Origin: Primulina eburnea
Taxonomy: Eukaryota; Streptophyta; Magnoliopsida; Lamiales; Gesneriaceae
Reading direction: 5' to 3'
NCBI RefSeq assembly: GCF_022965805.1
Contig: NC_133101.1
Location: 51,168,342 to 51,232,341 of the forward strand
DNA: 64,000 nt
Shown here: piece by piece, positions 7,131 to 57,369 of the stretch
Numbering within the stretch: the stretch's first letter is position 1
Layout: each line of letters begins with the position of its first letter
The notes under the pieces: model-generated
What the model saw: the letters and a program-made list of their open reading frames with translations, nothing else
Databases searched by the model: none
Told to the model about the DNA's origin: nothing
Made by a program: the position numbers and the translations under genes

Positions 7131-7212
7131 TTATGGATTATAGAATGTTAATAAAAAATTTTGTGAGTTGTTCTTGATATTTTATCTTATGCATATTCAA
7201 GTAATACTATCA

Positions 7213-8236
7213 ATGGGAGATTCACGAGAAAAATATAATGTGTGGACGATTGAAGAGAGCAATGAATTGCTAAAAATTATGGTTGATGCTGCCATGAGAG
7301 GATGGCGTGATAAGAATGGAGTATTTAGCAAAAAAACTGTAGAAAAGAAAATACTTCCCGCTCTGAACGACAAGATTGGGTGTGCAAAAACTATTACACA
7401 ATATCAAAGTCGTCTAAAGTGGTTCAAAGGAAGATACAGCAGTTATTGTAAGCTTATGCGTCATAACTCTGGTTTTGGATGGGATCCTGAGACAAAGAAA
7501 TTCACGGCTAATGACGAAGTATGGGAAGATTATTTTAAGGTGAGAGTCTTCGAGTTTAAAAAAATAAAATTTATATTTACAATTAGATTTATAACTAGCT
7601 TAACACTTGATGTTATTTTTTGCTCTTTACCAGTCTCACCCTAAACATGAACACTATCGGACAGACACTTTTGAGGATTATGAAGACCTGAGAATTGTGG
7701 TTGGGACTGGAACTGCTACAGGAAAACACTCAATTGGAGTAGGAGATGACACTGATGCAAGAAAATTTGAGATAGAAGAAAATAGGGGAACTAGTTTAAT
7801 AGACGATTATGTGTTTGATCACAACATTGGTGAATATTTCGTGCAAAGCGACGGACAAGAATCTTCGTATCAACCTCCATTTTTCGAGGACTCTATTTCA
7901 TCATTACCCTCTCAGCCCATAAGTTCAGAGGTTCCAGCAACAACTAGGAAACGGGATAGGACCGAGTTTGAAGCAAAATCAAACACATTCAAAAGTATTG
8001 ACCCAAATGCTATGCATGAGTTCTCCCATAGTCTTGAGAAGGTGGTTTCTAAGATAGAATCAATAGGGAATGCAGGTGACACTTGTTGGGATGCTATCAA
8101 GGAGGTCCCAAATTTGGATAATCGTACTCGATATAAGGTGCTTGATTTACTCAATACCAGATCAAAAAAGATGGATTTCTTGAAAATGACCATTGAAGAG
8201 CGTTCGGGATGGATAGATTATAAATTGAATGGCTGA
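7213..8236 (+). CDS. Harbinger ORF1: Myb/SANT-like DNA-binding accessory protein (two exons)
   Basis: This is the accessory protein of PIF/Harbinger elements, which binds element ends and helps bring the transposase to the nucleus. Exons are 7213-7539 and 7634-8236. The intron (7540-7633) has a clean gtgaga donor and ttaccag acceptor and keeps the frame (about 309 residues). The N-terminal ~105 residues form a trihelix-type Myb domain (Myb_DNA-bind_3): YNVWTIEESNELLKIMVDA, then SRLKWFKGRYSSYCKL, then GFGWDPETKKFTANDEVWEDY. The middle is acidic and serine-rich. The C-terminal part (VPNLDNRTRYKVLDLLNTRS) resembles the tail of L10-interacting MYB-type proteins. I chose the ATG at 7213 (MGDSREKYN) because the domain begins right after it; an upstream in-frame ATG at 7168 adds only a hydrophobic stretch. 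Confidence 0.82.
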
Positions 8237-8473
8237 GTATGTTTTGAAATACAATTCTTAAATAGTTACCTTATGTTAAAAATTCTATTCGCATTGTTTC
8301 GAATTGTTTTTCTAATTATTGATCTAGTAGAAAACTCTTGCATTTTGGATGATTTATATAAGTTTTTTGTTTTTTCTTGAACATATCTTGTTTGATACAT
8401 GGAATGGTTTTTAATAAATTTATAGAGTTTCTTTTATTTTAATTATCTGTTTGATATCAGGTAGTTTATTTAA

Positions 8474-9921
8474 ATGTCAAATATCAACGTCGATGAAGTA
8501 GAAGAACAAATGGAAGAAGATGAATTTGAAGAAGAATTACACGAAACTATAAGGTTTTTGTTAGTTGAAGTTCGTGGGAGCCTCTATACTTTAACTAAGA
8601 ATATAGCTAACATGAATTGTGAACATTTCCATCGTCCTTTAAATAGACGACCAATAACTTCAAGGGGATACGATTATATTCATAAAATATTGAAAGAAGA
8701 TCCAACAAACTTTCGAGAGATTTATAGAATGTACCCCGATGTATTTTTAAAATTGTGCAACATCCTTAGAGAGAAAACACATTTACAAGATACAAGACAC
8801 ATTTGTATTGAAGAAATGCTTGCCGTATTTTTACTCGTTGTTGGTCATAATACCCGATATTGCTTAATTCGTAAAACCTTTGAACGATCACACTACAATA
8901 CAAGCCAAAACTTCAACAAGGTGTTGAAAGCATTAAATAGCATTGCAGCAGATATGATGGTCAAACCTGGATCTGCAGTGCCCGAAAAAATAAGAGAGAG
9001 TACAAGATTTTATCCTTATTTCAAAGTAAGTAATGAAATTCTTTTTGTTGTCTTTGTTATTGATGTTGTTGTAATTATTATTATTATTATTATATTGTTG
9101 TTATAGGATTGCATTGGAGCTATTGATGGCACTCATATTCCTGCCACGGTGTTTGGGCGTGATACTAATAGTTATCGTAATCGTCATGGGACGATTTCTC
9201 AAAATGTTTTAGCAGCATGTAACTTTGATTTAGAATTCATATATGTGCTCAGTGGATGGGAGGGATCTGCACATGATTCAAACGTATTGACAGATGCTTT
9301 ATCAAGAAATAACGGGCTTAAAGTGACACAAGGTTATTTTTTAATGCTACTAGCTTATTTAATTTTTTATTTTTATTTTTTAGGATTATATATTCTATAC
9401 ATTAGTTACTTGATCCTACAAAATATGGTTTGATAGGTAAATTCTTTTTAGTGGACGGTGGATATCCAAATCGACGTCAATTCTTGGCTCCTTTTCGTGG
9501 TGTGCGTTATCATCTCCAAGATTTCACTGGCCAAGGTCGCCACCCTGAAGATGCAAAAGAGTTGTTCAATCTCCGTCACGCTTCTTTGAGGAACGTAATT
9601 GAAAGGTTATTTGGTATATTTAAATCGCGGTTCAAATTATTCAAAACTGCTCCTCCGTTTAAATATACGACACAGACAGAGATTGTATTGGCTTGTGCTG
9701 GATTACACAATTTTCTTCGCAAGGAGTGTCGTTCTGATGAATTTCCAGTTGAAACCGAGATTGAAGTTCCACCATCTTCATCAGAACAAGTTTACGAAGT
9801 TGACAACTTTGGTGAATTATTCGATACACAAGAACAACAACGGACAAATGCTAATGCATGGAGAGATGCCATAGCAAATCAAATGTGGAGCGATGTAGAT
9901 CATATTGTCAATATAAGTTAG
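8474..9921 (+). CDS. Harbinger transposase (DDE_Tnp_4 type), three exons
   Basis: The gene encodes the catalytic transposase of the element. Exons are 8474-9025, 9107-9332 and 9437-9921, with gtaag/ttatag and gttatt/tgatag intron borders, giving about 420 residues without a stop. The N-terminal region (PITSRGYDYIHKILKEDPTNF, EEMLAVFLLVVGHNTR) is the usual helix-turn-helix part. The catalytic triad is visible: Asp191 in DCIGAIDGTHI, Asp266 in FFLVDGGYPNRRQFLAPF and Glu315 in SLRNVIERLFGIFKSRF. The first intron contains a (tta)n run. Length and motif order match intact plant Harbinger transposases. It lies 240 bp downstream of ORF1 in the same orientation. Nothing in it looks broken. Confidence 0.9.
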
Positions 9922-10316
9922 ATTTTATTTCATAAACTACTGTTTAAATTTTATCAAATTGTCATACTATTTTGATTTTTTAATCTAATATTCACAAAAA
10001 GAAATTGTTATTTTTTTGATTAATTAATAATTTATGTTGAATTGGTTAGGATCGAGAAGTTCAATTTTGAGTTCTAAATTGACTAGTGATTCATTATTTG
10101 TTAATTGAAAAAGTTAACAGAAGTCTACAAAAGTCTTGCAAAAAGTCTACAGGAATCTATGGAATTCTGTTTAGAAATCTGTGAGATTCTACAAATGTCT
10201 GTCAAATCCACAAAAATCTCTTATTAAAAAAAGTCATTAAAAGTCGTTAAATCTCTAGGTTGAATACACCCATGTTAATTGGGCCGACTACATATATTAT
10301 TTTGTCATTTATTATT

Positions 10317-10452
10317 GGGGAAATTGCTCATAAATCCCTAAACCCAAACTTAACTTGTCCCTAGTTCCCTAGCCATCAAAAACTCTCTTTTAACTCCCTA
10401 AACCTATAAAATTGACAAAACTACCCTTATTCTCTATTTTCTTTTAATTGAT
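10317..10452 (+). repeat. Left terminal inverted arm of the MULE-like element
   Basis: It begins ggggaaattgctcataaatc and pairs with the complement of 18315-18454. Identity is moderate and spread over the full arm, with the best matches around the repeated ctccctaa motif, the acccttat motif and the aattgat inner end. The 9-bp target duplication abuts it at 10308-10316. Confidence 0.75.
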
Positions 10453-10469
10453 CCTCCGCGCTTCAAAAT

Positions 10470-10481
10470 TGGTATCAGAGC
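10470..10481 (+). promoter_or_regulatory. Primer binding site for initiator tRNA-Met (virus)
   Basis: The 12-mer tggtatcagagc is complementary to the 3' end of plant initiator tRNA-Met and is the minus-strand primer site of caulimovirids. It lies at the very left edge of the viral sequence, about 60 bp before the first small ORF. Confidence 0.9.
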
Positions 10482-10530
10482 ATGATTAATTTATTTCAAA
10501 CACGAAAATTTTATTATTACTAGTAACTAA

Positions 10531-10695
10531 ATGTATGAGAAGGAGAATTTCGAAAAAATTATGAATCCGAACTTTAGTTCGAGGAGAATAATTTACAAGA
10601 AATATTCCAATATTTTGGAATACACACAAGTTTATCTAACTATCGTTAGATATCAGAAACAGGCCGAAAAGACCAGATCTTCAATGATCTGTTAA
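10531..10695 (+). CDS. Viral small ORF 1 (54 residues), unknown
   Basis: This is the first ATG-initiated frame of note after the primer site. It begins MYEKENFEKIMNPNF, is rich in Tyr, Lys and Ile, and ends two bases before the next ATG at 10698. I recognise no family. The tight stop-to-start spacing matches the chained ORFs of caulimovirids, which are translated by reinitiation. It could equally be a leader sORF that controls downstream initiation. Confidence 0.45.
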   Translation: MYEKENFEKIMNPNFSSRRIIYKKYSNILEYTQVYLTIVRYQKQAEKTRSSMIC

Positions 10696-10697
10696 AT

Positions 10698-10895
10698 ATG
10701 CCAGGGACTACCATCCAATTCGAAATTGAACTTATTTCCCTGGAAATAAATCAATTAGAACAAGAATTACAGCGAAGTATATGCTTCACTGAACTCAGAA
10801 CAAAAGGTATGCGTTTACAAGGTTTAAAGAACCGTAAAAACATACTTCAAAATCTACTCAGAAGAAATTCTTCAGAGAACAATGGATCTGTATAG
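10698..10895 (+). CDS. Viral small ORF 2 (65 residues), predicted coiled coil
   Basis: The product has a heptad-like pattern (IELISLEINQLEQELQ) followed by a basic part (KGLKNRKNILQNLLRR-like). No family is recognised. It starts 2 nt after the preceding small ORF. Caulimovirids often carry small coiled-coil proteins upstream of the capsid gene. It may be a structural or transmission-related protein, but this is inference from position. Confidence 0.5.
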   Translation: MPGTTIQFEIELISLEINQLEQELQRSICFTELRTKGMRLQGLKNRKNILQNLLRRNSSENNGSV

Positions 10896-10942
10896 ACAGA
10901 AGATCTACGAAGGGAAGCAACAGCACCCTCAGGTAAAAATTT

Positions 10943-11314
10943 ATGATTCAGAATAATAAATTTCTGGAGATAGTACCAGACTCCTCTAAGCTCTCTCTGG
11001 ATCTTAGAGAAATACAGAAAACGGTACAAAATTATGGCAATATGCTATATTATGTACCTCAAAGGATTGAAAAGGTCCTAGAAAAACAAGAAGAAATTCT
11101 TGAAATCTTAAAGGATATTCAAACAAGAATACAGAAACTAGAACAACAACCAAGTTCTAGTAGAAGAACTTCAGGAGGCTGGTTACCACCATCCTTTGGT
11201 ACCGAACCTTTGTTACATCAACAAGGGAAGGCCAGAGTGGTGTCAAAACCTTTAACTGAAGAAGAAAAGATGATCAATTTAATCAAGTCTGTCTCAGAAA
11301 AGAAATTGATCTGA
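10943..11314 (+). CDS. Viral virion-associated-like protein (123 residues)
   Basis: The central part is a strong coiled coil (RIEKVLEKQEEILEILKDIQ, then TRIQKLEQQ), followed by a Ser/Arg- and Pro-rich linker and a short C-terminal helix (EEEKMINLIKSVSEKKL). Caulimovirus virion-associated proteins have the same plan: an N-terminal coiled coil that oligomerises and a C-terminal part that binds capsid or DNA. The stop codon overlaps the capsid start (TGATG at 11312-11316), typical of reinitiation on a polycistronic RNA. The functional name rests on architecture and gene position, not on residue identity. Confidence 0.55.
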   Translation: MIQNNKFLEIVPDSSKLSLDLREIQKTVQNYGNMLYYVPQRIEKVLEKQEEILEILKDIQTRIQKLEQQPSSSRRTSGGWLPPSFGTEPLLHQQGKARVVSKPLTEEEKMINLIKSVSEKKLI

Positions 11315-12756
11315 TGACAACTTTAGAAAGGATTGGTTTGGAGGATCTACAAGAGCTTGCGGAATCTTTCGCAAATCTCAAAGTAGTAGATCTAAAGATG
11401 AATACAGCAGTAGGTGAAACACCACCTGCAATAACCTGGTCATCTTCTCAGGAACCACCAAGGGAAAGTATGGGATCTCATAATGTAAATATGAGAGAAT
11501 CTCAGACTGATTTTCATACCGGTGGAGGATCACACCCAGCGGGAACAAGGGCAAGGAAAACTCAAATTCCTTTGCACCAAACACCCTACGGGAAAACTGT
11601 TTTAGATCCTATACATCCTTACGGGGTTATGCTTAACCTTGATGTATTGGACTTCAAAAACAGAGAAGATCTCATAGACGAAAGGACATCTGCTATGAGA
11701 ATTGCAGCAGGAACACTTGATCTCAACAAAGAAGGATTCATTAAACTTTTGGAAATGAGTCTTATGGGATCAGTAAAAATTGCTTGGGACATGACTTCAG
11801 CAGACATGAAAGAGTCAGTCCTAGTTGGGGAATCTCTTAGTGAGATCGCTGGAAAGATGGCTACCCTATTCAAAGCACACTTTATAGGGGTAGACTATTT
11901 CAACAGTCAAGATACAGAAAAGAAGAAAAAATATACTCAAGCTCTGTATAGTCTTGAATTACATGATATATGTTTGGTAGATGAATACATTATGTTATTC
12001 ACCAAATATAGATGGAATTCAGGAGTCGAAGAAGATATAGCTATGCAGCTTTTCTTCGCAAAAATGCCAAGCCCTTGGAGAGAAATGCTCATAAGGGAAT
12101 ACGTACCTGGTAATCCAGATACATTGGCAAGAAGAGCCTCTTTCCTTAAAGGGAAATTAGCAGAATGGTGTCACATGGCAGCATTACAAAAGAATTACAA
12201 ACGACTAAGGGGTATCAACAAAAGAACTCCTTTGTGTTGTAAGGAAAATGATCTTCCAACAATTATTGGAAGTAAACCACAGAAGCATAAAAGGAAAAGT
12301 TTTAGGACTCATCCTTATGCACAAAGTGGAAGAAGTTCTTGGAAACCAAGAACCGTATGGTCTAGACAGAAAGCCAGATCTTATAAATCTGGACAAAGAA
12401 GCGGACCATCAAGAAGTAGGATATCATCCCAAGCATCGAGCTCATCTCGAAGCACGGGAAGAACACCTACAAAGAAAACTTTCAGAAGAGCTCATACTAG
12501 AGCCAATGAAAGTTTCAAGGATTGTAATTGCTGGACATGTGGAGCAAGAGGTCATATCTCGACCAATTGTCCAGAGAATGAGAAAAGAGGTATTAAACGT
12601 TTTAATCCTACTCCGGATATTGAAGAAGCAGTTTATTACCAAGATCTTATTCAAGTATACCGATTTGAGGATATCGCCTCAGATGAAAGTATATATGAAG
12701 AAGAAGTCGTCTTAAGTCAAGAAGAATCTGATGGAACAGAATCGGAATCTGACTGA
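11314..12756 (+). CDS. Viral capsid protein with CCHC zinc knuckle
   Basis: The 480-residue ORF is complete. The N-terminal ~100 residues are polar. The core (about 110-290) shows the caulimovirid capsid pattern with LLEMSLMGSVKIAWDM and YTQALYSLELHDICLVDEY. A strongly basic Arg/Lys/Ser region (about 320-395) precedes the zinc knuckle CWTCGARGHISTNC (about residue 405-418, C-x2-C-x4-H-x4-C). The C terminus is acidic (SQEESDGTESESD). Capsid proteins of this family package the genome and use the knuckle to bind RNA and the acidic ends for processing and regulation. The last 26 nt overlap the movement protein ORF in another frame. Confidence 0.85.
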   Translation: MTTLERIGLEDLQELAESFANLKVVDLKMNTAVGETPPAITWSSSQEPPRESMGSHNVNMRESQTDFHTGGGSHPAGTRARKTQIPLHQTPYGKTVLDPIHPYGVMLNLDVLDFKNREDLIDERTSAMRIAAGTLDLNKEGFIKLLEMSLMGSVKIAWDMTSADMKESVLVGESLSEIAGKMATLFKAHFIGVDYFNSQDTEKKKKYTQALYSLELHDICLVDEYIMLFTKYRWNSGVEEDIAMQLFFAKMPSPWREMLIREYVPGNPDTLARRASFLKGKLAEWCHMAALQKNYKRLRGINKRTPLCCKENDLPTIIGSKPQKHKRKSFRTHPYAQSGRSSWKPRTVWSRQKARSYKSGQRSGPSRSRISSQASSSSRSTGRTPTKKTFRRAHTRANESFKDCNCWTCGARGHISTNCPENEKRGIKRFNPTPDIEEAVYYQDLIQVYRFEDIASDESIYEEEVVLSQEESDGTESESD

Positions 12757-13966
12757 AGACGAGGTGTTTCGACACGAAACACATGAAGATTTGTCTGGGT
12801 TTTTTAGCCAGACAACAATATCTCATAACATGGTTCAAAGAATCATGAGAGAAAATCCGAGTTTACAGAGATACCAAGGTTTCTCTGCAGGACAGGTAGA
12901 AAAGTTCTTAGGAAGTCTTGGCCTAAGAAACAGAAAGCATCATCTAATCTATAAAGTTTCTAGAAGGGAAATGGCAATCCCAATGGAACTTACAGGAAAT
13001 AGAATGGAGATGCAGTTAATTCCTTCCGAAGAAATAAAGGAGGAATTACAAAAACTCAAGATAGAAGTAGCAAGGACTATGTCCTGGATTCACATAGGAG
13101 CAATCCAGATTATGATAAAGGCTACTTTCAAAGAAGGGATAGATTCACCAATTGATATCGCCATATGCGATAAAAGAATGGGGAATCTACAAGATTCAGT
13201 ACTGGGAACAATCTCAGGAAACCTCTGTGCAGGAAAAATTGTAGGAGTAATCTATCCAAGGATAGCCTACAACCTGGCAGATCGAGATTTCAGCCGAGCC
13301 TTGACATTACATCAGAATTTTAAGGAAAAAAGGTTGATGAAAGAAGGCAATAGACCATATTCTATTACCTATCAGATTTCATATGCTCTATCTAATACAC
13401 ATCATTCTGAGTTGTTTATTAGAAACGAATTTATTGAAATCCCTGAGATATTTGGAAAAGTTGCGCAGGCAATTTATCCAGAAAGAATTGAGTTTCCTTT
13501 AATACAGGGAACAGATATCCAGATCCAAGACAAACCGATTCTACAAAGGAATCAAAGTCTTAGATTAGAACCAAGAAGACTATCTTTTCAAGGAGATAGA
13601 ATTACAAGTTACAGATGGGATAAAAAGCCTGTCATAGAAACCCAACAGGAGCTGAAAAGTTTTTCTACAATAGGAAAGCTCAGATGCCCAGAAGGTTGGA
13701 AGGAAGTAGAAATAGTATTTGATATTACAAAACAAAGGAATCAATTTCCTTGTAATTCAATATACCATTTGGAACAACCAATGATAGGAACTTACCAAGG
13801 ACTGATTAATATCGGAGAATTGGAGGTTCATATTCAAGGAATCCCAGGAAAAGAATCAGAACGATTGATTCTTGGGCTAGAGTTTCTCGAGGAACATAAA
13901 CCTTGGAAACGTCTAGAGTATGGAATGGAGTTTATGGCAGAAGATAAAATGTGGAAAATCCAATGA
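12731..13966 (+). CDS. Viral movement protein (30K superfamily)
   Basis: The 411-residue ORF is complete. It is recognised by the 30K core, around residues 115-215: SWIHIGAIQIMIKATFKEGI, then SPIDIAICDKRM, with the conserved Asp, and further on GKIVGVIYPRIAYNLADRDF. Members of this superfamily modify plasmodesmata so that virus moves from cell to cell. A C-terminal extension of about 120 residues is unassigned. The start lies inside the capsid ORF and the end overlaps the polymerase ORF by 16 nt. In cavemo- and solendoviruses capsid and movement domains share one ORF, so the separate overlapping frame is a distinguishing feature unless it arose by an old frameshift. Confidence 0.85.
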   Translation: MEQNRNLTEDEVFRHETHEDLSGFFSQTTISHNMVQRIMRENPSLQRYQGFSAGQVEKFLGSLGLRNRKHHLIYKVSRREMAIPMELTGNRMEMQLIPSEEIKEELQKLKIEVARTMSWIHIGAIQIMIKATFKEGIDSPIDIAICDKRMGNLQDSVLGTISGNLCAGKIVGVIYPRIAYNLADRDFSRALTLHQNFKEKRLMKEGNRPYSITYQISYALSNTHHSELFIRNEFIEIPEIFGKVAQAIYPERIEFPLIQGTDIQIQDKPILQRNQSLRLEPRRLSFQGDRITSYRWDKKPVIETQQELKSFSTIGKLRCPEGWKEVEIVFDITKQRNQFPCNSIYHLEQPMIGTYQGLINIGELEVHIQGIPGKESERLILGLEFLEEHKPWKRLEYGMEFMAEDKMWKIQ

Positions 13967-15987
13967 CCACAAGTCCATTCTCCATATACATTCCAGTAGG
14001 AATGTTGTATGAACAATATAAGGCAGAATACTTTGCTGCATATATTGATTCAGGTGCTGGAATATGTACAGCAAAACGAGGAGTTTTTCCAAATAATTTG
14101 GAAGAAGAGTTACCCAAGATTGCTGGACGAGATTTTTCCAGAAGAATCTTAATCTTATGTAAAGGGATTAAGATGACTGAAATCATGATTGGCGGTGCTG
14201 GACAAACACCTTGGTACAAGGTAAAGACACCACCAATTTATTTTCATGATACAGGAGCTGACATATTGTTAGGAAATAATTTCCTACAAATGTTCAAATC
14301 CTATACACAGGAAAATGAGACTAGAAGATTAGTATTCACAACACCATGTGCTCACAAAATCATAGTCCAGAGACTTCGGGAGGCATTTTACAGAAAATTG
14401 CCAATCCAGTTTCGTAGCAAGCGTGGTGATTCAGGAAAACTTCTGAACCCAAAAATGAAGGATTCAAGACGGTTTGGAGAAACAATGCTCCAGTTAAGAG
14501 CAGATAAGGAACTCCAACCAGAAGATATAGAATGCCTTAAGATAACTCTACACACAAAAGAAGTAGAGTTTGAATCTAAGGTATCACTGGAAGATGTTAA
14601 GAAGAGGATCAAAGAAAATTATAACGAAGATCCCTTGGCATGGTGGGACAGAAATCAACTCAGGGCTTGCCTTAAGATCAAGGAAGGCAAAGAGTATGAA
14701 TTTGTCCGTTGTAAACCCATCCCAATGAACATCATTGATCAGAGGGATATGCAGATTATAATCAAGGAACATTTGGACCTTGGTTTAATCAAAGCAGGTA
14801 TGTCACCATATAACAGTCCAGGTTTTTTGGTAAGAAACCATGGTGAAATTAAACGAGGAAAACCCAGATTGGTTATTAATTATCAAGAAATTAATAAGAT
14901 TCTGGAGTTTGATGGGTATTTTATACCTAGTAGAGAACACTTGATTAGTTGCATTCGCAATGCCAAGATATTCTCTAAATTTGATTGCAAGTCTGGATTC
15001 TATCAGATTCGGATGCAAGAAGAAAGCAAGAAATTCACAGCTTTCTCCACACCTCAAGGACATTATATTTGGGAAGTATTACCAATGGGATCGGCTAACT
15101 CACCCCAAATATTTCAAAGAAAGATGGATAATCTTTTCAAAGATTATTTCAAGTTTATGTTTGTTTACATCGACGATGTTTTAATAGCATCCAAAGATAT
15201 GAATGAACATGTTAAACATTTGGAGATTTTCTCTAATGTTTGCAAGAAAGAAGGACTGGTTTTATCTGAAAAGAAAGCAGTCATTGCTACAAGAAAGATT
15301 GAATTCCTCGGAATTGAAATCGATGAGTCAGGAATAATTCTGCAAGAGCACATAGTAGAAAAAGTGCAGAATTTTCCAGAAAATCTCAAAGACAAGAAGC
15401 AACTTCAAAGTTTTTTAGGGGTTGTTAATTTTGCTGAGATGTTTATTAAAAACCTGGCAAAACACAGGAAGGTGTTCAGTCCATTATTGAAAAAGGATGC
15501 TAGATTTATATGGACAGACGAACACACAAAAGGACTTATCCATTTAAAGAAGGTTTGCAAAAATCTTCCAAAGATGGCTATTCCTCAAGACGAGGATGAT
15601 CTGGTATTATATACCGATGCCAGTGATCATTGGTGGGCTGCAGTATTAACAAAGCTCACACCAGATGGAGAACAACCATGCAGATATTGTAGTGGGTTAT
15701 TCTCAGATGCAGAAGCCATAAGATGGCATATCAACGAAAAGGAATTTTATGCAGTAAAGAGGGCTTTTGAAAAATGGCCATTATTTTTACTTGCAAAGAA
15801 ATTCACTTTGAAAGTTGATAACACTCAAGTTAAAGCCTTTTTGAGGAATAGAATTGAGTCTAAACCGGAGAAAGCTAGATTATTACGATGGCAAGCTTTA
15901 TGTCAAAATTATATTTTTGATATTATAATAATAAAATCTCATGAAAATATTCTTGCAGATTTTTTAACAAGAGATGGACAGCATTGA
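13951..15987 (+). CDS. Viral polymerase: aspartic protease, reverse transcriptase, RNase H
   Basis: The 678-residue ORF is open from end to end. The retropepsin site is near residue 31 (AAYIDSGAGICTA), with the matching hydrophobic-Gly segment ADILLGNNFL. RT motifs run from about residue 250: KPRLVINYQEINK, FSKFDCKSGFYQIRM, LPMGSANSPQIFQRKM and the catalytic YIDD (about 405). RNase H starts with LYTDASDHWWAAVL (about 553) and continues through NEKEFYAVKRAFEKW and LKVDNTQVKAFL. There is no integrase, as expected for a pararetrovirus. All visible catalytic residues are present. The product would copy the pregenomic RNA into DNA in virion-like particles. The next gene begins 14 nt before its end. 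Confidence 0.92.
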   Translation: MENPMTTSPFSIYIPVGMLYEQYKAEYFAAYIDSGAGICTAKRGVFPNNLEEELPKIAGRDFSRRILILCKGIKMTEIMIGGAGQTPWYKVKTPPIYFHDTGADILLGNNFLQMFKSYTQENETRRLVFTTPCAHKIIVQRLREAFYRKLPIQFRSKRGDSGKLLNPKMKDSRRFGETMLQLRADKELQPEDIECLKITLHTKEVEFESKVSLEDVKKRIKENYNEDPLAWWDRNQLRACLKIKEGKEYEFVRCKPIPMNIIDQRDMQIIIKEHLDLGLIKAGMSPYNSPGFLVRNHGEIKRGKPRLVINYQEINKILEFDGYFIPSREHLISCIRNAKIFSKFDCKSGFYQIRMQEESKKFTAFSTPQGHYIWEVLPMGSANSPQIFQRKMDNLFKDYFKFMFVYIDDVLIASKDMNEHVKHLEIFSNVCKKEGLVLSEKKAVIATRKIEFLGIEIDESGIILQEHIVEKVQNFPENLKDKKQLQSFLGVVNFAEMFIKNLAKHRKVFSPLLKKDARFIWTDEHTKGLIHLKKVCKNLPKMAIPQDEDDLVLYTDASDHWWAAVLTKLTPDGEQPCRYCSGLFSDAEAIRWHINEKEFYAVKRAFEKWPLFLLAKKFTLKVDNTQVKAFLRNRIESKPEKARLLRWQALCQNYIFDIIIIKSHENILADFLTRDGQH

Positions 15988-17319
15988 CATTGATGCTATT
16001 ATCAAGATGCAGAGGCATTTGAGGGAACACCTTGAAATGCTTCAAACCGAGTTCAACAAGTTAGCTGTTAACGCAGAATTTGCGGGAAGGCTACAACAAG
16101 CTGATAAGAGAATTGTCTCTGATCGAATTACATGATGTTTACAGGCATATACTCAGTTATGGTCTGTAACGCAAAGGCCTATCCTCCAGGGCATTGAGAG
16201 ACCACTGGTTTCTCAAATGGAGAGTTTTCGAGTACAGGACTCTATACCTGTAGCGGGGGATTCAAATACCCCTTGCACAAGTGTTAAGTCGGGATCATCA
16301 TCAGATGAGTCGGCCAAAACAAAAATTGAGACTCCTGATCCTTATCTTGAGTCTTCAAGTCAACCCTTCACCTCGGGGATTGAAGAGGGAGAGATTAACC
16401 TTAGGCCTCGTATTGACAAAGGCAAAACTAAGGTTGATACTAATGAAAGTATAATTTCTCCATTTCAGGTTTATCAGCAGAATTGGGAGAAATTAAAAAC
16501 ACGAATTGGCATTAACCCAGCTACAAGCAGGGTTGACGTTTCAGGAAAATATCCAAGGGTATGGATGAAACAAAATTCATATCCAAAGGAAGTTAAAGCA
16601 TGGTATGAATTTGGGGCTCTTGCCTCAGTTTATACTACATCACCCAGCTTTCCAGAAATTTCAGGTCTACCAAAATGGATCCAGGAAGCTGTTCACGAGA
16701 CTTGGGCAAACAATGATTATTTGTCCAGGGGAGATGTTCTGGAGCTATACTTCTTTAGTACAGCACCAGAACCACAGGAAAAGGTTCTCACGAAGCCTTC
16801 CATTTCATCAAGCTAAGGAGGCCAGATTTGAATGTCCAGAAATTTATCAAGGACCCTCCGACAGAAGAAACACCCCTGGTGTCTTCAATAACTAAAGATG
16901 ACATTTCTACCAGAAGAGCTTGGGGTATTTGGGTCTGTCTCACTGAGATGGACAAAGTCAAGTTTCCGTTCAAATTCTACAATCATTCAGTGAACGGATC
17001 ATTCCTGTTAAATACCATGACAGGAAAAAAAACAAGTTTTGCAGAAGATCTATTTGAAAAGAAAAGAAATCTTTTGTGGAATAGCAAGCTGCCGGCAAGT
17101 AAAGAAACTCGTCGGAAATTCTGTAATATGGCACATGTAGGAAGATGGTCTGAAAACATCTGTCCAAAATGCCAAAACCAGAAGGAACCGGAATTTGGTA
17201 AAGGATTCAAGCCGAGATCTGATCGGAAACACTTTACCGATACCAGTACAAGTGGGGATGGACCACATTCACGATTTCCTCGAGGAAGCCGAAAGCCGAA
17301 GATTCCTCGACAAAATTAA
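15974..17319 (+). pseudogene. Viral translation transactivator / inclusion-body protein, broken
   Basis: The gene follows the polymerase with a 14-nt overlap, the usual place for the transactivator (TAV) that permits reinitiation on the polycistronic RNA and forms the viroplasm. The reading frame from 15974 is closed by a TGA at 16133-16135, then stays open in the same frame to 16816. The remaining part (16828-17319 and a little upstream) continues in another frame, so there is one in-frame stop and one frameshift near 16780-16810. The second part has the aromatic-rich TAV-like core (AWGIWVCLTEMDKVKFPFKF) and a Cys pair CPKC near the basic C-terminal tail. It is the only large viral gene that is clearly damaged. 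Confidence 0.65.
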
Positions 17320-17352
17320 AAGGGACATGTGATCCTCCATTACAAAAGCAGG

Positions 17353-17434
17353 ACCACTACCATGTGAGTGGTAGAAACAAGACAACCACTAATTAGTGGT
17401 AAAGGACAAATAGACCACCAATAACAAATGGTGG
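17353..17434. repeat. Three adjacent short inverted repeats upstream of the viral promoter
   Basis: Three stems stand in a row: accact/agtggt (17353-17358 with 17367-17372), the perfect 16-bp palindrome ACCACTAATTAGTGGT (17385-17400), and ccacca/tggtgg (17415-17420 with 17429-17434). Directly after them is tgactca, an AP-1/bZIP-like core. They lie about 430-510 bp upstream of the TATA box, where pararetroviral enhancers sit, and could bind host factors. Function is inferred from position. Confidence 0.75.
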
Positions 17435-17566
17435 ATGACTCAGTAAGCATTGAATACCAATTTAAAAGGAATCCAATGAATAAAAGTAAATTAACTGGTC
17501 CCGAAAATTCATCCATAAATAAGGACAGAAAGGAAACCAGTTAACACACCAGAATCAAAACTTAAA

Positions 17567-17767
17567 ATGTATCGTGTATATTTGAAAGTTTTGAAAAGAA
17601 GAATAACATACAAGAGGAAAGAGGCAGAAGCACTGAAATGGTTAGTAAATCATTTCAAAGAGTATAAAAAAGATGAAATTACTGCCGATATCCTGGAAAC
17701 TCATCGTCAATGGTATCTAAGAGAGATAAAGGAAGATGAGAAGTTGATGTCAAGATTAATAATCTAG
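17567..17767 (+). CDS. Viral small ORF downstream of TAV (66 residues), unknown
   Basis: The frame begins MYRVYLKVLKRRITYKRK and is basic, with several Trp and Tyr (LKWLVNHFKEY, HRQWYLREI). It has no recognisable family. It lies between the transactivator and the promoter, a place that is non-coding in most genera. The amphipathic composition looks protein-like, but at this length chance cannot be excluded. Confidence 0.4.
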   Translation: MYRVYLKVLKRRITYKRKEAEALKWLVNHFKEYKKDEITADILETHRQWYLREIKEDEKLMSRLII

Positions 17768-17860
17768 ACAGGGACCCCTCAACCACCAAATGGTCCCCAA
17801 TGCAAGCTGTAAAGGCTTATGAAGATTTGAAATCCGAAGTTCAAATCCGAAGGAGCCTTC

Positions 17861-17868
17861 TATAAATA
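17861..17868 (+). promoter_or_regulatory. TATA box of the viral pregenomic RNA promoter
   Basis: The motif tataaata follows a GA-rich stretch and is followed by GAAG-rich sequence, as in other caulimovirid pregenomic promoters. A start site near 17890-17900 would give a transcript that runs around the circle, through the leader and primer site, and ends at the poly(A) signal at 18045, so that both ends share about 150 nt. Confidence 0.7.
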
Positions 17869-18044
17869 AGGAAGGAAGAAGGAAGTGAAGATCATCAAAT
17901 ATTTTCTCCATTTCTTTCATACAAGGTTGTAATATTTTCTTTCAAGTTTTATGTGTGTTAAGAGTTCAGCTACGATAAGTAGCTAAAACAAGTTTCTCCT
18001 CCTCTACAGGAGGTTACTATGTAATAAATAAATGTTTGTGTTTG

Positions 18045-18050
18045 AATAAA
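18045..18050 (+). terminator. Viral poly(A) signal
   Basis: An AATAAA lies about 180 bp after the TATA box, the spacing used in this family. A second AATAAA is at 18023-18028. Passing the signal on the first round and using it on the second creates the terminally redundant RNA. Confidence 0.7.
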
Positions 18051-18314
18051 AGAGATCTTTGCTCTTAGCCCCTATCATGTATTATTTTCAAAAAATTTGA
18101 TCTTTTGCTGTACGCTCTAAGGTAGGAAACGAATTAGAGCTGTGCTAAGTATTGCTGAAGGAATCTGCTTAGTAACCATCGGTTGCGATCGTGTGGTTGG
18201 ACTGTGAGGAGCAGTTCGTAAAAAACGGTGGATACAACCCGGTGGTACTCTAGTCAAAAAGGTAAAAGATTCAATTTATTTTACGGAAGCATGATGGGCC
18301 TTTTACTACAAAAA

Positions 18315-18454
18315 AGAAATCAATAATTTAAAATAAAGATATAAGGGCAAACTTGGAAATTTGAAGGATATGGGGAGTTGAAACAAAGTTTTAATGGGGT
18401 AGGGAGTAAAGAGGAAGTTGAGAATGGAAATAGGGAGTTTTTGACAAAATCCCC
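18315..18454 (-). repeat. Right terminal inverted arm of the MULE-like element
   Basis: Read on the minus strand it begins ggggattttgtcaaaaactc and runs parallel to the left arm. It is followed at 18455-18463 by the second copy of the 9-bp duplication. The arm ends inward near caataattta, where viral sequence takes over. Confidence 0.75.
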
Positions 18455-18463
18455 TTTATTATT

Positions 18464-30500: not shown

Positions 30501-31936
30501 AGAAAGGAAACCAGAAAACGCAGGAACCGATAGCTGCTGTCAAGGAGATGGGGTTCGGTTCTTGTGGTGCAGGGGTTGGGGCTCGGGTTGGCCGGTTCCA
30601 GGGGCTAGCCACGGGTAAGTGCAAGGTGGGAGGAGAGTCCTAGCCATGCTAGGACTCGGACCGAAGGGCAGGGAGGAGTCCTTGCAATCAAGGACTCCCA
30701 CCCGAGAGAAGTGTACCGATCGGCGCATGGCTTTGTGCCTCTTCTGGAGTTCAGGGGCTCGTTGCGTGGGGCACGGGCTGGGTTAGGGTGACTCATTAGG
30801 ATCCTAAGCAAGTGTTCTTGACATTTGTTCGGGTGGTAGGGCGTTGGTTGGAGCCACACGATCACACACACAGATTTCATGAATGTCACAAACTCTCGGC
30901 CAGAACATGCTCTTCTAGGATAGCTTTGTTTTTGTGGTTTTGGGGGTTGTCTTGACAAACTTAGTGTCCAGTAGGCTAAATTAACATGTTGGGCACCTTA
31001 TGGCTCGATATGGTTCGGGGGTAACTCGATAAAATTAAGAGATGGCTCGGGGTCGAAGTTTAGGTGCCAAAATGAGTTTTAAAACAAAGAAAATTTGGAA
31101 AACGACTCACGGGGGTCGAGTCGTGATCCTCAAGGGCTAAAATAATATAAAAAGACGAAATTTAGAATTTAGGAATTTTATATTAAAGTTTGGTATTTTT
31201 TTCGGGATTAAAACATCGTTAAAATAATTAAGAAAAGATAATTGGAAAAGTCTAAGTTTTAAGCCAAATAAAATTACAGAAAAATTCATATAAGCTTAAA
31301 TAATTATTTCGGACATTTTAGGGTCATGAAATCAAAGAAAAAGTCGAAATCGTAATTTGTCGAGCCCAGGGGTAAAACGGTCTTTTTACGCCGGGAAATT
31401 AGGAAAGGTCATGGCAGTGCCCGAAATGCTATTTTTATGAAGATATGATTATTTTTAAACATTTATGAATTTTTCATGATTAATTGATGATTTTTAAATG
31501 TCTAAGGGATTTTCATGATTTAAGAAGACATTTAAAATACATGTTGCATGCTTGGTTTCAAAAATGAAAAATGTTATGTTATGCATGATTTTTATAAAGT
31601 GATGTGAATGAAAAATGTTGAAGGAAGTGAAGTGATTGTGACTAATTCGTTAATAATGGCGACGTCGTGAGGGTTATGATCCCAGTGGGAGCCCGACGAT
31701 CGTGTTTCCATTATTGCAAATATGAGGTTTGAGGTAAGAATGGGGATTTCGTGAGGGGAGAAGGCCCCAGAGGGAGCCCATTTATGGGAAAAGGCCCCAG
31801 AGGGAGCCCCGACGATCGTATTCCTATTCGATCATGTTAGGCTAGGGCCCAGTTGACCGGTGAGAGTGTTGTTGGTGTTCCCCGCCGCCCAGTACTGTGG
31901 TTTTATTTAGATGGATCCATCGTCATGTCATGTCAG

Positions 31937-32165
31937 TTAAAGCAACTCCTGAAGCCCAAGAAACAAATTGATAAGAGCCCATTATCTTAAGTCCATTGTC
32001 TTAAGTCCATAGGATGTATGGCAAGCCCATTGGTTTAGAATAATCTAGAGGAATCATTCTGTTACAACTAATTGTATTTATTCCTGCCAAATTGTAAATG
32101 CGAAGAGCAACATAAATGAAATTCATGTTGGGCATCTCTTTCTTCCTTCTTTTGTTTTTCTAATT
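31937..32165 (+). repeat. 5' LTR of Copia D
   Basis: It starts ttaaagcaactcctg and ends tttttctaatt. It lacks the usual TG...CA termini. The primer site begins at the next base. Confidence 0.85.
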
Positions 32166-32186
32166 TGGTATCAGAGCTATCTATCC

Positions 32187-35100
32187 ATGGCTGACGCCAT
32201 CTCCGGCAGTGGATTTACAACCCACACTCATGTAAATCCATCAGCCAACACAAGCTTCTTACTCGTGAATCCAGCTAACCAAATTAATTCGGTTAAGCTC
32301 ACTGACGAGAATTTTCTTTTATGGAATCTCCAAGTTATCGCTGGAATTCGTGGGTTGGGGTTAGAAAATTTCATACTCGAGCACCCTCATGTTCCTCCTA
32401 AAGTAGTTCATGGTGAGAATACTGTCGACGACGTCAACCCCCAATTCGTTACCTGGAGTAGACAGGATCAACTTCTGTTTTCGTTTCTATTGTCTTCCAT
32501 GTCTGAATCTGTCCAAAGCCAAATGATCGGATGTGATACGTCCTCCCAACTTTGGCTTCGGGTATCAACGTTATTTGCCTCAAGATCGAAAGCCAAGGTG
32601 ATGCAATACAAGCTACAGCTGCAAACCATGAAGAAAGGAAATCAAAATATGAAAGATTACCTTAGCAAAATGAAAAATATTATGGATACTTTAGCTGCTT
32701 GTGGTCACTTAATCAGTGAGGATGATCAAATCTTATATGTTCTCGGTGGCATTGGATTGGAATACGACTCTGTTGTAGTTCACATTACTTCAAGAATTGA
32801 TACTCTAGCACTATCAGAGGTGAATGCTCTTCTGTTAACTCATGAAGGACGCCTGGAATCTCATAACATCAACAATGAAACATTGCCTCATTCAGTCAAT
32901 GCAACTACCTTTGCTCCTACTAAGAGGACTGATGATTCTGCTTCATCACGAAGCTCCTTTTCTGAGTCCTTTTCAAGACGAAGCTCATTTGTCCGAGGCC
33001 GTGGTCGTGGTCGGAATACTCGGGGAGGCAAGCGTTTTTGGAATAACAACAATGGCAGACCAGTTTGTCAAATTTGTGGAATCACAGGTCATGTGGCTGG
33101 AATATGCTATTACAGATTTGATGCCGAGTATACTGCCAAACCTCCGAATTCTGTTCGATTCCCTTCATCGGGTTCTTTTCGAGCACCACAACAAGGTCAA
33201 TATCGACCTCCTCAGCCTCCTTATCCGTCAGCAGCCATTGCAACTACCACCTCTGAATCTGCAGGAGATGAGTGGTGGTTTCCAGATTCTGGAGCTTCTC
33301 ACCATGTTACGAATGATCTTGGCAATCTCACACTTGGTTCAGAGTACACTGGCGGTGGTAAGGTTCATATGGGCAATGGTGCAGGTCTGTCTATCTCACA
33401 TATTGGTGAATCAACATTTGGTTCATCTTCCCTTTCTCGTCCTTTCCATTTGAATAACCTACTTCATGTTCCTCAAATAACAAAAAATCTTTTAAGTGTT
33501 CGTCAGTTTACCCGTGATAATAATGTCATGTTTGAATTTTATCCTTCTTATTGCCTTGTGAAGGATCTAGCCACGCGAGTTGTTCTTCTCCAAGGAATTT
33601 TACATAACGGCCTGTACAAGTTCAACCTTGGGCCACCTCATCCTACTGTTGAATCCCAACCTACATGTCTTCATTCTACACTTTCTGACGAGTACTCCGG
33701 TCCTCATTCCTCTCATCAGCAATCAACTAAGGCCTCCTCAAGTGTTCTAGACCAGTGGCACTATAGATTAGGCCATCCTCCTCTTTCTACTGTTAAGCAA
33801 ATTCTATTAAACTGTAATTTTCGTTTTCCAAGAAATGAACGTATGCATTTATGCGAAGCTTGTGAACTTGGCAAAAGTCATAAACTCCCGTTTCCATCTT
33901 CTCAAACACAATTTTCCGAACCACTTGAACTTATTTTTGCCGATGTTTGGGGTCCTGCCCACACCCCTTCTCGAAATGGTTTCAAGTATTATATTAGTTT
34001 TGTTGATGCTTTTAGCCGTTTTACGTGGATCTACTTTCTTAAATTAAAATCAGAAGTTGTTCATGTGTTTGCACACTTCAAAACTCACACTGAACTTCAA
34101 CTCAACAAAAAAATCAAAGTCCTTCAGTCTGATTGGGGTGGGGAGTTTCAAGCTATGAGCTCTTTCCTTAAAACAAATGGAATACATCATCGTGTTTCCT
34201 GCCCTCATACTTCAAAACAAAACGGGGTTGTTGAACGAAAACATCGGTACATTGTTGACACCGGTCTTTCTCTTTTAGCTCATGCATCTATGCCTCTTTC
34301 CTTTTGGGATGATGCTTTCTCCACAGCAGTCTATCTTATAAACAGGTTACCCAATGTAGCCCTTCAAGAAAAAATTCTCATCCAATATTTAATCAACAAA
34401 CCACCAGATTATTCCCATCTTAAAACATTCGGATGCCTTTGTTTTCCATGTCTTCGTGATTATAATACTCACAAACTTGACTTCCGCTCAACCCCATGTA
34501 CATTCATTGGTTATAGTGATAAACACAAAGGTTACAAATGCATTAATGCTACTGGTCGTGTCTTTATCTCTAGACATGTTAAGTTTCATGAGGAAAGCTT
34601 TCCCTTCTCCAAGTCCAGTGTTGTGTCTACTTCCACAGTCACACCTCAATCTTCTCTTTACTTACCCAAAGTCCCTACTTCTACATCTGTTTTCCCTTCA
34701 CATTTCATGACTCCACCAGTCAACACCTCATCTACCCCTTCTCCTTCCCAATCGGCCGATATACCCACTGTATCTTCTTCCCCTTCCTCTCATTCCCAGT
34801 CAGTCTCTACATCAAGTGATACACTTTCCCCTTTTCCTTCACCTACTTTCCCAGCTCCTGTGTCTCCCATATTGAATCTTCATCCAATGGTTACTCGCTC
34901 CAAGGACGGGATCTTCAAACCCAAGGTTCATCTGTCCTTGCACTCTAATATTTGGGAACCCTCTTCTTTTCAGGAAGCAAGCACACAACCTGAATGGTGC
35001 AAAGCTATGGAAGCTGAATATCAAGCCTTGATGCAGAACCATACCTGGAATCTTGTTGAAGCACCCTCTAACATACCCATCATTGGCTGTAAATGGGTAT

Positions 35101-36542
35101 TCAAACTAAAAACAAATCCTGATGGTTCCATTGCTAGACACAAAGCCCGTCTTGTCGCTAAGGGCTATTCTCAGACACCGGGGCTGGACTATACAGAGAC
35201 ATTCAGCCCAGTTGTGAAGCCCACAACCATTCGGCTTGTTCTCTCCGTGGCAGTTGCTAAGGGTTGGAGAATTCAAAAAATTGACGTCAATAATGCCTTT
35301 CTCAATGGCACACTTACTGAACTTGTGTATATGCGTCAACCCCCAGGTTTTGAAGCTCCAAACAACAATTCTCTTGTGTGCAAACTGAATAAAGCCATAT
35401 ATGGTCTCAAGCAAGCCCCGAGAGCTTGGTTTGCTCGGCTTTGTCATACTCTCAAACTTATGGGTTTTGTTGCCTCCAAAGCTGATGCCTCCTTATTTGT
35501 TCAATGTCATTCTGACTTTGTCATTTATATTTTAGTATATGTTGATGACATTTTAATCACAGGAAGTGATAATGCTCGGGTTCGATCAATCATTTCAGCC
35601 TTAAACAGTCAGTTTTCCCTTAAAGATTTGGGTGACGTGAATTATTTTTTAGGCATTGAGGTTTGTCGATCATTGGATAAATCCATGGTTCTCACTCAAA
35701 CCAAGTATGTGCAGGATCTGCTTCTTCGCACCAAGATGAACAATGCCAAAGCCTTGCCAACTCCGATGACTTCAGGACTTCGATTATCATGTAAAGATGG
35801 GGATCCATTTCCTGACAGTACGCTTTATCGGAGTACAGTAGGAGCTCTTCAATATCTAACCATTACCAGACCTGACATTGCATTTAGTGTCAACAAAGTC
35901 TGTCAGTTTATGCATGCTCCCTCATATTCTCATTGGAAGGCTGTCAAGCGCATTTTACGCTACTTGAGTGGCACTCTTGGATTGGGTATTCGTCTACATC
36001 CTAGTTCTGCATTTACTCTTCATGGTTTCTGTGATGCCGATTGGGGTAGTGACCTTGATGATCATCGATCCACATCTGGTTTTTGCTGGTTCTTTGGGTC
36101 TTCTCCTATTTCTTGGAGCTCCAAGAAACAACCTATTGTATCCAGGTCCAGCACTGAAGCAGAGTACAGAAGTGTTGCTAATGCCACATCCGAGCTGTTG
36201 TGGATTCAGTCCCTTCTTTTTGAGCTACACATTGCTGTCTCAAAACCACCTATTCTATGGTGTGACAATATCAGCACCATTGCACTCACTGCTAATCCAG
36301 TTTTACATGCTCGAACTAAGCACCAGGAGCTTGATCTTCACTTCGTTCGGGAAAAAGTTTTGGCCAACCAACTGTCAGTACGTCATGTTCCTTCGAGTGA
36401 TCAACTTGCAGACGTTCTTACAAGACCATTGTCTACAATGATGTTTCATCGACTTCGGTTCAAGCTTAGCGTGGTTCCTCATCCCCTGCTAAGCTTGAGG
36501 GGGCAAGTTAAAGCAACTCCTGAAGCCCAAGAAACAAATTGA
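32187..36542 (+). CDS. Copia D Gag-Pol polyprotein, intact
   Basis: The 1451-residue ORF contains every part a Copia element needs. Gag (1-230, with TDENFLLWNLQVIAGIRGLG) is followed by a zinc knuckle CQICGITGHVAGIC (about 294-307). Protease has FPDSGASHHV (about 366). Integrase has WHYRLGH and CEACELGK (HHCC) and the triad Asp in DVWGP, Asp in SDWGGEF and Glu in VVERKHR (about 584, 646, 680). RT has VFKLKTNPDGSIARHKARLV and YVDDILITGS (about 1116). RNase H has CDADWGSDLDDHRSTSGFCW, SSTEAEYRS and LWCDNIS (1278-1411). No stop or frameshift is seen. The start ATG lies 9 nt after the primer site. The last 11 residues are read from the 3' LTR. Confidence 0.95.
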   Translation: MADAISGSGFTTHTHVNPSANTSFLLVNPANQINSVKLTDENFLLWNLQVIAGIRGLGLENFILEHPHVPPKVVHGENTVDDVNPQFVTWSRQDQLLFSFLLSSMSESVQSQMIGCDTSSQLWLRVSTLFASRSKAKVMQYKLQLQTMKKGNQNMKDYLSKMKNIMDTLAACGHLISEDDQILYVLGGIGLEYDSVVVHITSRIDTLALSEVNALLLTHEGRLESHNINNETLPHSVNATTFAPTKRTDDSASSRSSFSESFSRRSSFVRGRGRGRNTRGGKRFWNNNNGRPVCQICGITGHVAGICYYRFDAEYTAKPPNSVRFPSSGSFRAPQQGQYRPPQPPYPSAAIATTTSESAGDEWWFPDSGASHHVTNDLGNLTLGSEYTGGGKVHMGNGAGLSISHIGESTFGSSSLSRPFHLNNLLHVPQITKNLLSVRQFTRDNNVMFEFYPSYCLVKDLATRVVLLQGILHNGLYKFNLGPPHPTVESQPTCLHSTLSDEYSGPHSSHQQSTKASSSVLDQWHYRLGHPPLSTVKQILLNCNFRFPRNERMHLCEACELGKSHKLPFPSSQTQFSEPLELIFADVWGPAHTPSRNGFKYYISFVDAFSRFTWIYFLKLKSEVVHVFAHFKTHTELQLNKKIKVLQSDWGGEFQAMSSFLKTNGIHHRVSCPHTSKQNGVVERKHRYIVDTGLSLLAHASMPLSFWDDAFSTAVYLINRLPNVALQEKILIQYLINKPPDYSHLKTFGCLCFPCLRDYNTHKLDFRSTPCTFIGYSDKHKGYKCINATGRVFISRHVKFHEESFPFSKSSVVSTSTVTPQSSLYLPKVPTSTSVFPSHFMTPPVNTSSTPSPSQSADIPTVSSSPSSHSQSVSTSSDTLSPFPSPTFPAPVSPILNLHPMVTRSKDGIFKPKVHLSLHSNIWEPSSFQEASTQPEWCKAMEAEYQALMQNHTWNLVEAPSNIPIIGCKWVFKLKTNPDGSIARHKARLVAKGYSQTPGLDYTETFSPVVKPTTIRLVLSVAVAKGWRIQKIDVNNAFLNGTLTELVYMRQPPGFEAPNNNSLVCKLNKAIYGLKQAPRAWFARLCHTLKLMGFVASKADASLFVQCHSDFVIYILVYVDDILITGSDNARVRSIISALNSQFSLKDLGDVNYFLGIEVCRSLDKSMVLTQTKYVQDLLLRTKMNNAKALPTPMTSGLRLSCKDGDPFPDSTLYRSTVGALQYLTITRPDIAFSVNKVCQFMHAPSYSHWKAVKRILRYLSGTLGLGIRLHPSSAFTLHGFCDADWGSDLDDHRSTSGFCWFFGSSPISWSSKKQPIVSRSSTEAEYRSVANATSELLWIQSLLFELHIAVSKPPILWCDNISTIALTANPVLHARTKHQELDLHFVREKVLANQLSVRHVPSSDQLADVLTRPLSTMMFHRLRFKLSVVPHPLLSLRGQVKATPEAQETN

Positions 36543-36736
36543 TAAGAGCCCATTATCTTAAGTCCATTGTCTTAAGTCCATAGGATGTATGGCAAGCCCA
36601 TTGGTTTAGAATAATCTAGAGGAATCATTCTGTTACAACTAATTGTATTTATTCCTGCCAAATTGTAAATGCGAAGAGCAACAGAAATGAAATTCATGTT
36701 GGGCATCTCTTTCTTCCTTCTTTTGTTTTTCTAATT
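36508..36736 (+). repeat. 3' LTR of Copia D
   Basis: It is identical to the 5' copy except for one base. The first 35 bp also encode the end of the polyprotein (stop at 36540-36542). Confidence 0.88.
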
Positions 36737-56877: not shown

Positions 56878-56984
56878 AAGAAAATTAAAGAAGAGAGTGA
56901 GGGAGAGTTAGGGATTTGAGGGGGGGGGGGGGGGTTCGAGCAGAATGAAAGGGGGAAAGAGGGGATTGGGTTTTTAAAGCAGTC

Positions 56985-57160
56985 GCGCTCGAGCGGTACA
57001 AAACTACCGCTCGAGCGCCAACCTTTCGGTAAAATTTTTTCGGAATTTTATTTTCGCGCTCGAGCGGTAAAAATTACCGCCCGAGCGTGGAGCTCTATGG
57101 AAGTTAGCGTTTGCAACAAGTTGTCGCGCTCGAGCGGTACAAAACTGCCGCCCGAGCGCC
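56985..57160. repeat. Three-unit hairpin array between Athila integrase and env-like gene
   Basis: Three hairpins of the same type as in the LTR (gcgctcgagcggta, A/T loop, taccgc(t/c)cgagcgc) start at 56985, 57056 and 57126, a period of 70-71 bp. They lie upstream of the env-like gene in minus sense, where a splice acceptor or promoter for that gene would be expected. A run of about 13 G lies next to them at about 56921-56934. Confidence 0.88.
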
Positions 57161-57369
57161 GAGCTCTCTGGAAATTCTCGTTTTTTTTTGAAATAAAAAA
57201 AAAAACACAGTAAAAGAAAATAAAAAAAATATTGACAAGAAAGAAAAATCAAATTAAATGCAAGAGAGGGGAAAGAAAGTTATTTCTCAATTTACAGTCG
57301 AGAGCTAGACTATCGGTCGGTCTCAGTTTGAATTGTCTTGGAACCAGGTGATTCCAAGTTGTGGCTCAA

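Follow-up and report, generated by a model that had tools for sequence, protein, structure and literature searches.

A 64,000-nucleotide stretch of the Primulina eburnea genome (NCBI RefSeq assembly GCF_022965805.1, contig NC_133101.1, positions 51,168,342 to 51,232,341 of the forward strand; hereafter the window, with positions counted from its first letter) carries an element at 10317-18454 in which the genome of a plant pararetrovirus lies between the terminal inverted arms of a Mutator-type DNA transposon. A preliminary description had noted a GGGG...CCCC block within a perfect 9-bp direct repeat, inverted arms of about 140 bp and a near full-length caulimovirid between them. It left two accounts side by side, namely integration of a virus in the centre of a foldback element of the Mutator-like element (MULE) type, or capture of the virus by the arms, which then carried it as cargo. 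The parts of the element are the following.

10308-10316, plus strand: left 9-bp target duplication TTTATTATT, from the sequence
10317-10452, plus strand: left terminal inverted arm, beginning GGGGAAATTGCTC, from the arm alignment, with the same start in other copies
10453-10469, plus strand: 17-nt spacer between arm and primer site, kept with at most one base change in the seven other loci compared
10470-10482, plus strand: tRNA-Met primer binding site (PBS) TGGTATCAGAGCA, from the sequence
10483-10548, plus strand: 3' half of the outer leader stem (partner 17993-18058), from duplex energy and also blastn
10943-11314, plus strand: 123-aa open reading frame (ORF) in the place of the virion-associated protein, by place only
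11314-12756, plus strand: coat protein (PF22909) with zinc knuckle (PF00098), by profile match
12731-13966, plus strand: 30K movement protein (PF01107, E 2e-31), by profile match
13951-15987, plus strand: aspartic protease, reverse transcriptase (RT) and RNase H, by matches to Peptidase_A3, RVT_1 and RNase H, with YIDD present
16136-17316, plus strand: ORF in the transactivator place, in two overlapping frames (16136-16813 and 16759-17316), by place only
17861-17868, plus strand: TATA box of the presumed pregenomic promoter, by eye
17993-18058, plus strand: 5' half of the outer leader stem, from duplex energy
18045-18050, plus strand: AATAAA polyadenylation signal in the leader, by eye
18067-18300, plus strand: leader stem-loop, basal stem 18068-18080 with 18289-18299
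18319-18454, plus strand: right terminal inverted arm, ending AAATCCCC, from the arm alignment, with the same end in other copies
18455-18463, plus strand: right 9-bp target duplication TTTATTATT, from the sequence

The ends of the element agree with the geometry first described. GGGG stands at its start (10317) and CCCC at its end (18454), and the duplication lies directly outside both and is exactly 9 bp long, the preceding base being A at the left and C at the right. This is the sole GGGG/CCCC pair 2-12 kb apart with identical outer 9-mers in the window, and such a pair occurred in 3 of 200 block shuffles. The arms, 10317-10452 and 18319-18454, align over 136 bp, close to the length proposed (blastn, 68% over 126 bp, E 5e-5), and their local alignment score of 57 compares with at most 31 in 500 shuffles. 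Two of 1000 random pairs of stretches from the window scored higher (61 and 81); other inverted repeats exist there. Long terminal inverted repeats of the Mutator-like kind are thus present, here as 136-bp arms that are 68% alike, and in weaker form in a second arm type described below. Neither direct repeats of 20 bp or more at the element ends nor an integrase domain in the six ORFs scanned were found, and an origin as a virus borne by a long terminal repeat (LTR) retrotransposon or inserted through an integrase was rejected on these grounds. No MULE transposase was seen among the ORFs inside the element. Its interior is viral from primer site to leader, which separates it from the Pack-MULE class with its captured fragments of host genes.

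Coat protein, 30K movement protein and protease-RT-RNase H follow one another from left to right; a coat gene ahead of the movement gene is the arrangement of cavemoviruses and solendoviruses. Affiliation with the Caulimoviridae is indicated by a protease, RT and RNase H of caulimovirid type, by the 30K movement protein together with a caulimovirus coat domain, and by the tRNA-Met primer site and a structured leader with a short upstream ORF and AATAAA (upstream ORF and signals recognised by eye). The best PDB match of the RT is 8r0s, labelled Enzymatic polyprotein (E 5e-106), which is presumably the protein of cauliflower mosaic virus. The coat match to PF22909 is just above its cut-off (E 3e-6, 27.8 bits against 27), and that of the zinc knuckle PF00098 falls below. 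A function as virion-associated protein is assumed for the 123-aa ORF from its place in the genome; the region before it holds short frames only. The claim of a near full-length caulimovirid holds, apart from two points: left of the coat gene the window copy is exceeded by 275-281 bp in 15 of 20 other copies and by 75-81 bp in four, with one copy 82 bp shorter, and the ORF in the transactivator place, for which no Pfam match was obtained, is split over two frames. Scans of IMG/VR with the RT, the movement protein and the RT core found no relative, an NCBIfam scan linked the RT just weakly to a group II intron RT and matched nothing else, and a tRNA scan led nowhere.

The position at which the viral genome meets the arms can be judged from the leader. 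Each end of the insert carries one half of its outer stem: 17993-18058 pairs with 10483-10548 at -52.4 kcal/mol (halves paired as separate strands), against a mean of -17.5 and a best value of -36.7 in 300 shuffles, none of which was as good. Since the basal stem of the leader stem-loop closes at 18299, the virus extends to at least that point, and the right arm starts at 18319; at the other end the primer site starts 17 nt inside the left arm. From the split stem and these short spacings we conclude that the insert is a circular viral genome that was opened no further than about 36 nt from the tRNA-Met primer site. This site is the conventional nucleotide 1 of a caulimovirid genome (PMC4241990, PMC13308828), and the minus-strand discontinuity of such viruses is located there (PMC5902531). 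Without the virus, the element would be a near-palindrome of 289-307 bp, which places the virus at its centre.

Recurrence of the same structure was examined in the window's own assembly (812,487,562 bases in 1224 contigs). The left junction query, 10300-10500, comprised host flank, left arm, spacer, primer site and virus start, and the best 40 of 370 candidates all consist of arm plus virus start at 95-100% identity, with matches starting at query positions 2-22 (the element starts at 18). With the right junction, the best 40 of 344 candidates all run from the leader to the element end, within 1 nt, and for a piece of the RT the best 40 of 733 candidates were scored; these first-look candidate numbers are not counts of copies. 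The excess of RT candidates (733 vs 344-370 for the junctions) leaves room for more divergent or truncated relatives, which may exist.

Three samples of places were read. In sample A, the 40 left-junction places including the window, the right arm was found in the predicted piece at 36, and 29 of these 36 have a strict 9/9 duplication, all 29 different. The other seven comprise four with 8/9 matches, one with a 1-nt shift, one with a 10-bp repeat and one with none. When left and right flanks of different copies were cross-paired, one match arose in 1260, and together with the 3 in 200 window shuffles this led us to reject an accidental 9-bp repeat. At two of the four places where the right arm was missed, it lies 9.8 kb (C11:37.70) and 11.9 kb (C13:27.48) from the left arm, and these copies probably contain nested insertions. 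Sample B consisted of 10 of the 17 right-junction places absent from the left list. Left arm and primer site were present at nine, all nine with strict duplications; two of the nine have the same 9-mer, TTAATATAA, and differ in the flanks beyond. Sample C, all 16 RT-picked places in neither junction list, yielded main-type arms at both ends at 12 (11 strict, one 8/9), the second arm type at two (both strict) and, at the remaining two, a right arm with no left arm in the pieces read.

Altogether both ends were read at 59 places (window included), and a strict 9-bp target duplication, as is typical of Mutator-like elements, was found at 51 of them. The Mutator signature proposed for the window is thereby confirmed well beyond it, and virus-containing copies that agree in their arms but differ in their 9-bp duplications, which had been named as the mark of movement as a unit, exist at dozens of places. 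The opposite outcome, that other copies of the virus always lack the arms, is contradicted by the RT-picked places, 14 of 16 of which have arms at both ends and two a right arm only. Because the same arms and virus recur at many sites with different duplications, it is nearly certain that the unit moves with Mutator-type geometry.

The arms themselves are not uniform. Two copies (C15:20060667 and C1:2944291; L169 and L183) have other outer arms, which begin GGGTTAATTAGG and end AAGTTACCC, and both show 9/9 duplications. Their inner 70 nt before the primer site match the main arm in 52 of 82 columns, and the outer 50 nt do not exceed shuffles in similarity to the main arm (30 identities; mean 26, maximum 33 in 300 shuffles). 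Two further copies start GGGTAAAT, with left-arm identities of 80 and 86%. The second arm pair is a sign that the pair can be exchanged, and a change of both outer arms in the same copies would be easier if the arms adjoin in a circle.

Selection and linkage were analysed in 21 copies, i.e. the window and 20 of the 39 other left-junction places, the other 19 having been read at their ends only. Ratios of nonsynonymous to synonymous substitution (dN/dS), computed pairwise without a consensus and pooled over 210 pairs per gene, are 0.134 for the RT (440 codons), 0.124 for the coat (365 codons) and 0.102 for the movement protein (260 codons). In pairs with dS below 0.02 the values are 0.33, 0.53 and 0.36, respectively. 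Pieces free of stops and frameshifts number 14/20 for the RT, 13/20 for the coat and 18/20 for the movement protein, and the 20 copies contain 20 such lesions over 3195 nt. Together these figures show the pattern left by purifying selection on a lineage and later decay of its inserted copies. That the movement protein is constrained suggests cell-to-cell movement of the virus, and it is quite probable that the source lineage was replicating under selection as a virus. Based on the stop fraction, an assumed 0.1 indels per substitution and assumed rates of 5e-9 to 1.5e-8, the lesions correspond to about 0.2% divergence since insertion, or a mean of the order of 0.1-0.4 million years in a sample that favours window-like copies. 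Maximum pairwise dS (0.09 in the RT, 0.15 in the coat and 0.22 in the movement protein) reflects an older separation of lineages.

Copies are also mosaic. One of them is 0.3-0.5% distant from three others in the RT, yet 2.8-3.2% in the coat and 13-15% in the right arm. Among the 21 copies, distances in the region from PBS to ORF1 correlate with those of the right arm (r=0.72) and leader (r=0.68), whereas RT distances are uncorrelated with leader (-0.02) and right arm (-0.11). The PBS-ORF1 region lies about 7.5 kb from leader and right arm when inserted and would be their neighbour in a circle, while the RT lies about 2 kb from the leader. This linkage of the far ends supports a circular stage, short of proof.

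The best overall explanation, to which we assign a probability of roughly 0.7, is that the genome of a replicating pararetrovirus lineage includes transposon ends, through which a host MULE transposase inserts it into chromosomes. The window element belongs to a family of mobile units in which a pararetrovirus genome, opened at the tRNA-Met primer site, lies between Mutator-type arms. Since no transposase gene was seen inside the element, a MULE transposase presumably acts on the arms in trans. In an inserted copy the promoter lies at the right end with the genes to its left, so that this copy alone should give no full terminally redundant pregenomic RNA, and for this reason a circular stage is proposed: the lineage would have multiplied as a virus through reverse transcription, its circular form having the two arms back to back between leader and primer site. 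The fusion may go back to an insertion of viral DNA into the middle of a short near-palindromic MULE. We give slightly better than even odds to the further step that DNA-transposon arms are a standing part of the circular viral genome and that this virus reaches chromosomes by way of a host Mutator transposase. Such an element would replicate both in the class I and in the class II manner, and its arm pair would be an exchangeable module.

Several observations weigh against this explanation. The back-to-back arm junction expected of the circle gave one match as an exact pattern over the assembly, in which CCCC belongs to the host flank, although diverged forms would escape such a pattern. Exact patterns gave no direct sight in the assembly of the circle, of an armless virus or of the ancestral MULE. 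The pairs behind the pairwise dN/dS values are not independent. Left arm and right arm distances correlate at 0.44 (Mantel p 0.001), no more closely than the left arm does with coat (0.57), PBS-ORF1 (0.43) and RT (0.41), and the link between the arms themselves is thus not special; variation in the left arm is low because copies were picked by left-end similarity. Mean variation between copies is 0.082 in the right arm against 0.014 in the leader. The arms of the window are just 68% alike, and those of the second type are weakly alike (69 identities, 25 mismatches and 32 gap columns in an uncontrolled alignment). Moreover, internal patches of conversion between chromosomal copies could also leave mosaics with linked ends.

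Alternatively, the virus could be DNA cargo in the strict sense, having entered a MULE once and spread by MULE transposition alone with its genes as passengers. The terminal geometry and the duplications require nothing more, a single insertion should yield no full-length pregenomic RNA, and the genome holds no arm-arm junction by exact pattern. Passengers, however, should drift near a dN/dS of 1, and the pooled values are 0.10-0.13 in three genes including that for movement, with higher values just in the closest pairs; mosaic copies and linked far ends also disagree with such a history, which we consider unlikely. With regard to the cargo hypothesis of the preliminary description, the unit does move, and "cargo" is too weak a word for a virus with coat, movement and RT genes under purifying selection. 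Selection, mosaics and linked ends would be accounted for without episomal arms if an armless virus under selection had repeatedly replaced the interiors of existing composites by homologous recombination, the composites moving as transposons. This is somewhat less probable again: the armless leader-to-primer junction gave 0 matches in the assembly as an exact pattern (which diverged forms would escape), none of the 16 RT-picked places was shown to be armless (14 have both arms, and in the other two the piece read shows a right arm but no left one), and the right arm covaries with the virus at the left end (r=0.72).

A single accidental insertion of virus into a foldback, with a 9-bp repeat inherited from an older element and no movement of the unit, is compatible with the window taken alone, and one of two widely held routes of entry has viral DNA serving to fill hairpin-forming breaks (PMC10377300). 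As a whole story it is refuted, and must be held very improbable, because arm and virus meet at the same point at dozens of places whose duplications differ; integration in the centre of a MULE-type foldback may still describe the founding event, i.e. how the fusion began. An artefact of assembly or a segmental duplication has the least to recommend it and is close to negligible. The assembly does have 1224 contigs, some of them small, and the copies C458 and C3:14.49 have the same 12-bp left flank, with different ends, which makes them one possible duplicate locus, but all 29 strict duplications of sample A differ, and this origin is refuted for most copies read. A search for the empty element, as an exact pattern of 272-302 bp starting GGGGAAATTG and ending AATCCCC, gave two matches against three in backward controls, neither of them like the arms; the pattern covers part of the expected 289-307 bp and one end type.

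Other mobile sequences lie near the unit. Directly to its left, at 7144-9918, is the remnant of an element with a Myb/SANT-like domain followed by DDE_Tnp_4, which we take to be of PIF/Harbinger type. Further right, identical 231-bp direct repeats (31935-32165 and 36506-36736) mark the ends of a stretch, 31935-36736, with an open Copia-type polyprotein frame of 1497 codons (32049-36539), probably a young LTR element. Near-palindromic GCGCTCGAGCGGTA repeats are scattered over 53917-57183, and tandem arrays of ACAACGGTTTTT/AAAACCGTTGT units occupy 59800-61410, which in our view resemble CACTA-type subterminal repeats.

We know of no other reverse-transcribing virus or retroelement whose chromosomal copies are regularly bounded by the ends of a DNA transposon. 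Literature searches confined to open-licence papers listed no caulimovirid between the ends of Mutator or another DNA transposon. Endogenous caulimovirids in general, as described in PMC10377300, are similar in gene content, primer site, structured leader and chromosomal copies. As routes of entry the review names the repair of breaks near TA repeats and the LTR-retrotransposon machinery, and it mentions a suggestion that a transposon-derived integrase could be hijacked for integration (PMC10377300). Endogenous banana streak GF virus, flanked by a Ty3/Gypsy element and present as two allelic copies, is comparable in that a transposable element is proposed as the way into the chromosome, but that element is an LTR retrotransposon with its own integration mechanism, whereas the window family has DNA-transposon ends and dozens of copies (PMC10377300). 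Maize Mu has long terminal inverted repeats and 9-bp target duplications (PMC2774946), and MULEs, as Pack-MULEs, capture host genes (PMC9168764). The window unit has the same long terminal inverted repeats and 9-bp duplications, and differs in an interior made of one virus genome, opened at its replication start and with genes under selection. The MULE captures known to us are of gene fragments.

Nearest in principle is Teratorn of medaka, a piggyBac transposon fused with an alloherpesvirus, which has kept transposition activity and intact herpesvirus genes (PMC5601938). In both cases a virus genome is fused with a DNA transposon, but Teratorn is a piggyBac element of 180 kb derived from a herpesvirus, whereas the window unit has Mutator-type ends and an 8-kb reverse-transcribing virus. 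Teratorn also encodes its own transposase, whereas none was seen inside the window unit. With clean transposon ends and target duplications, chromosomal entry of the Primulina virus can be followed in one copy after another. Should the arms indeed belong to the viral genome, a reverse-transcribing virus would have gained the route of a DNA transposon, crossing the main divide in the classification of mobile elements, and the family would be a plant counterpart to Teratorn of fish.

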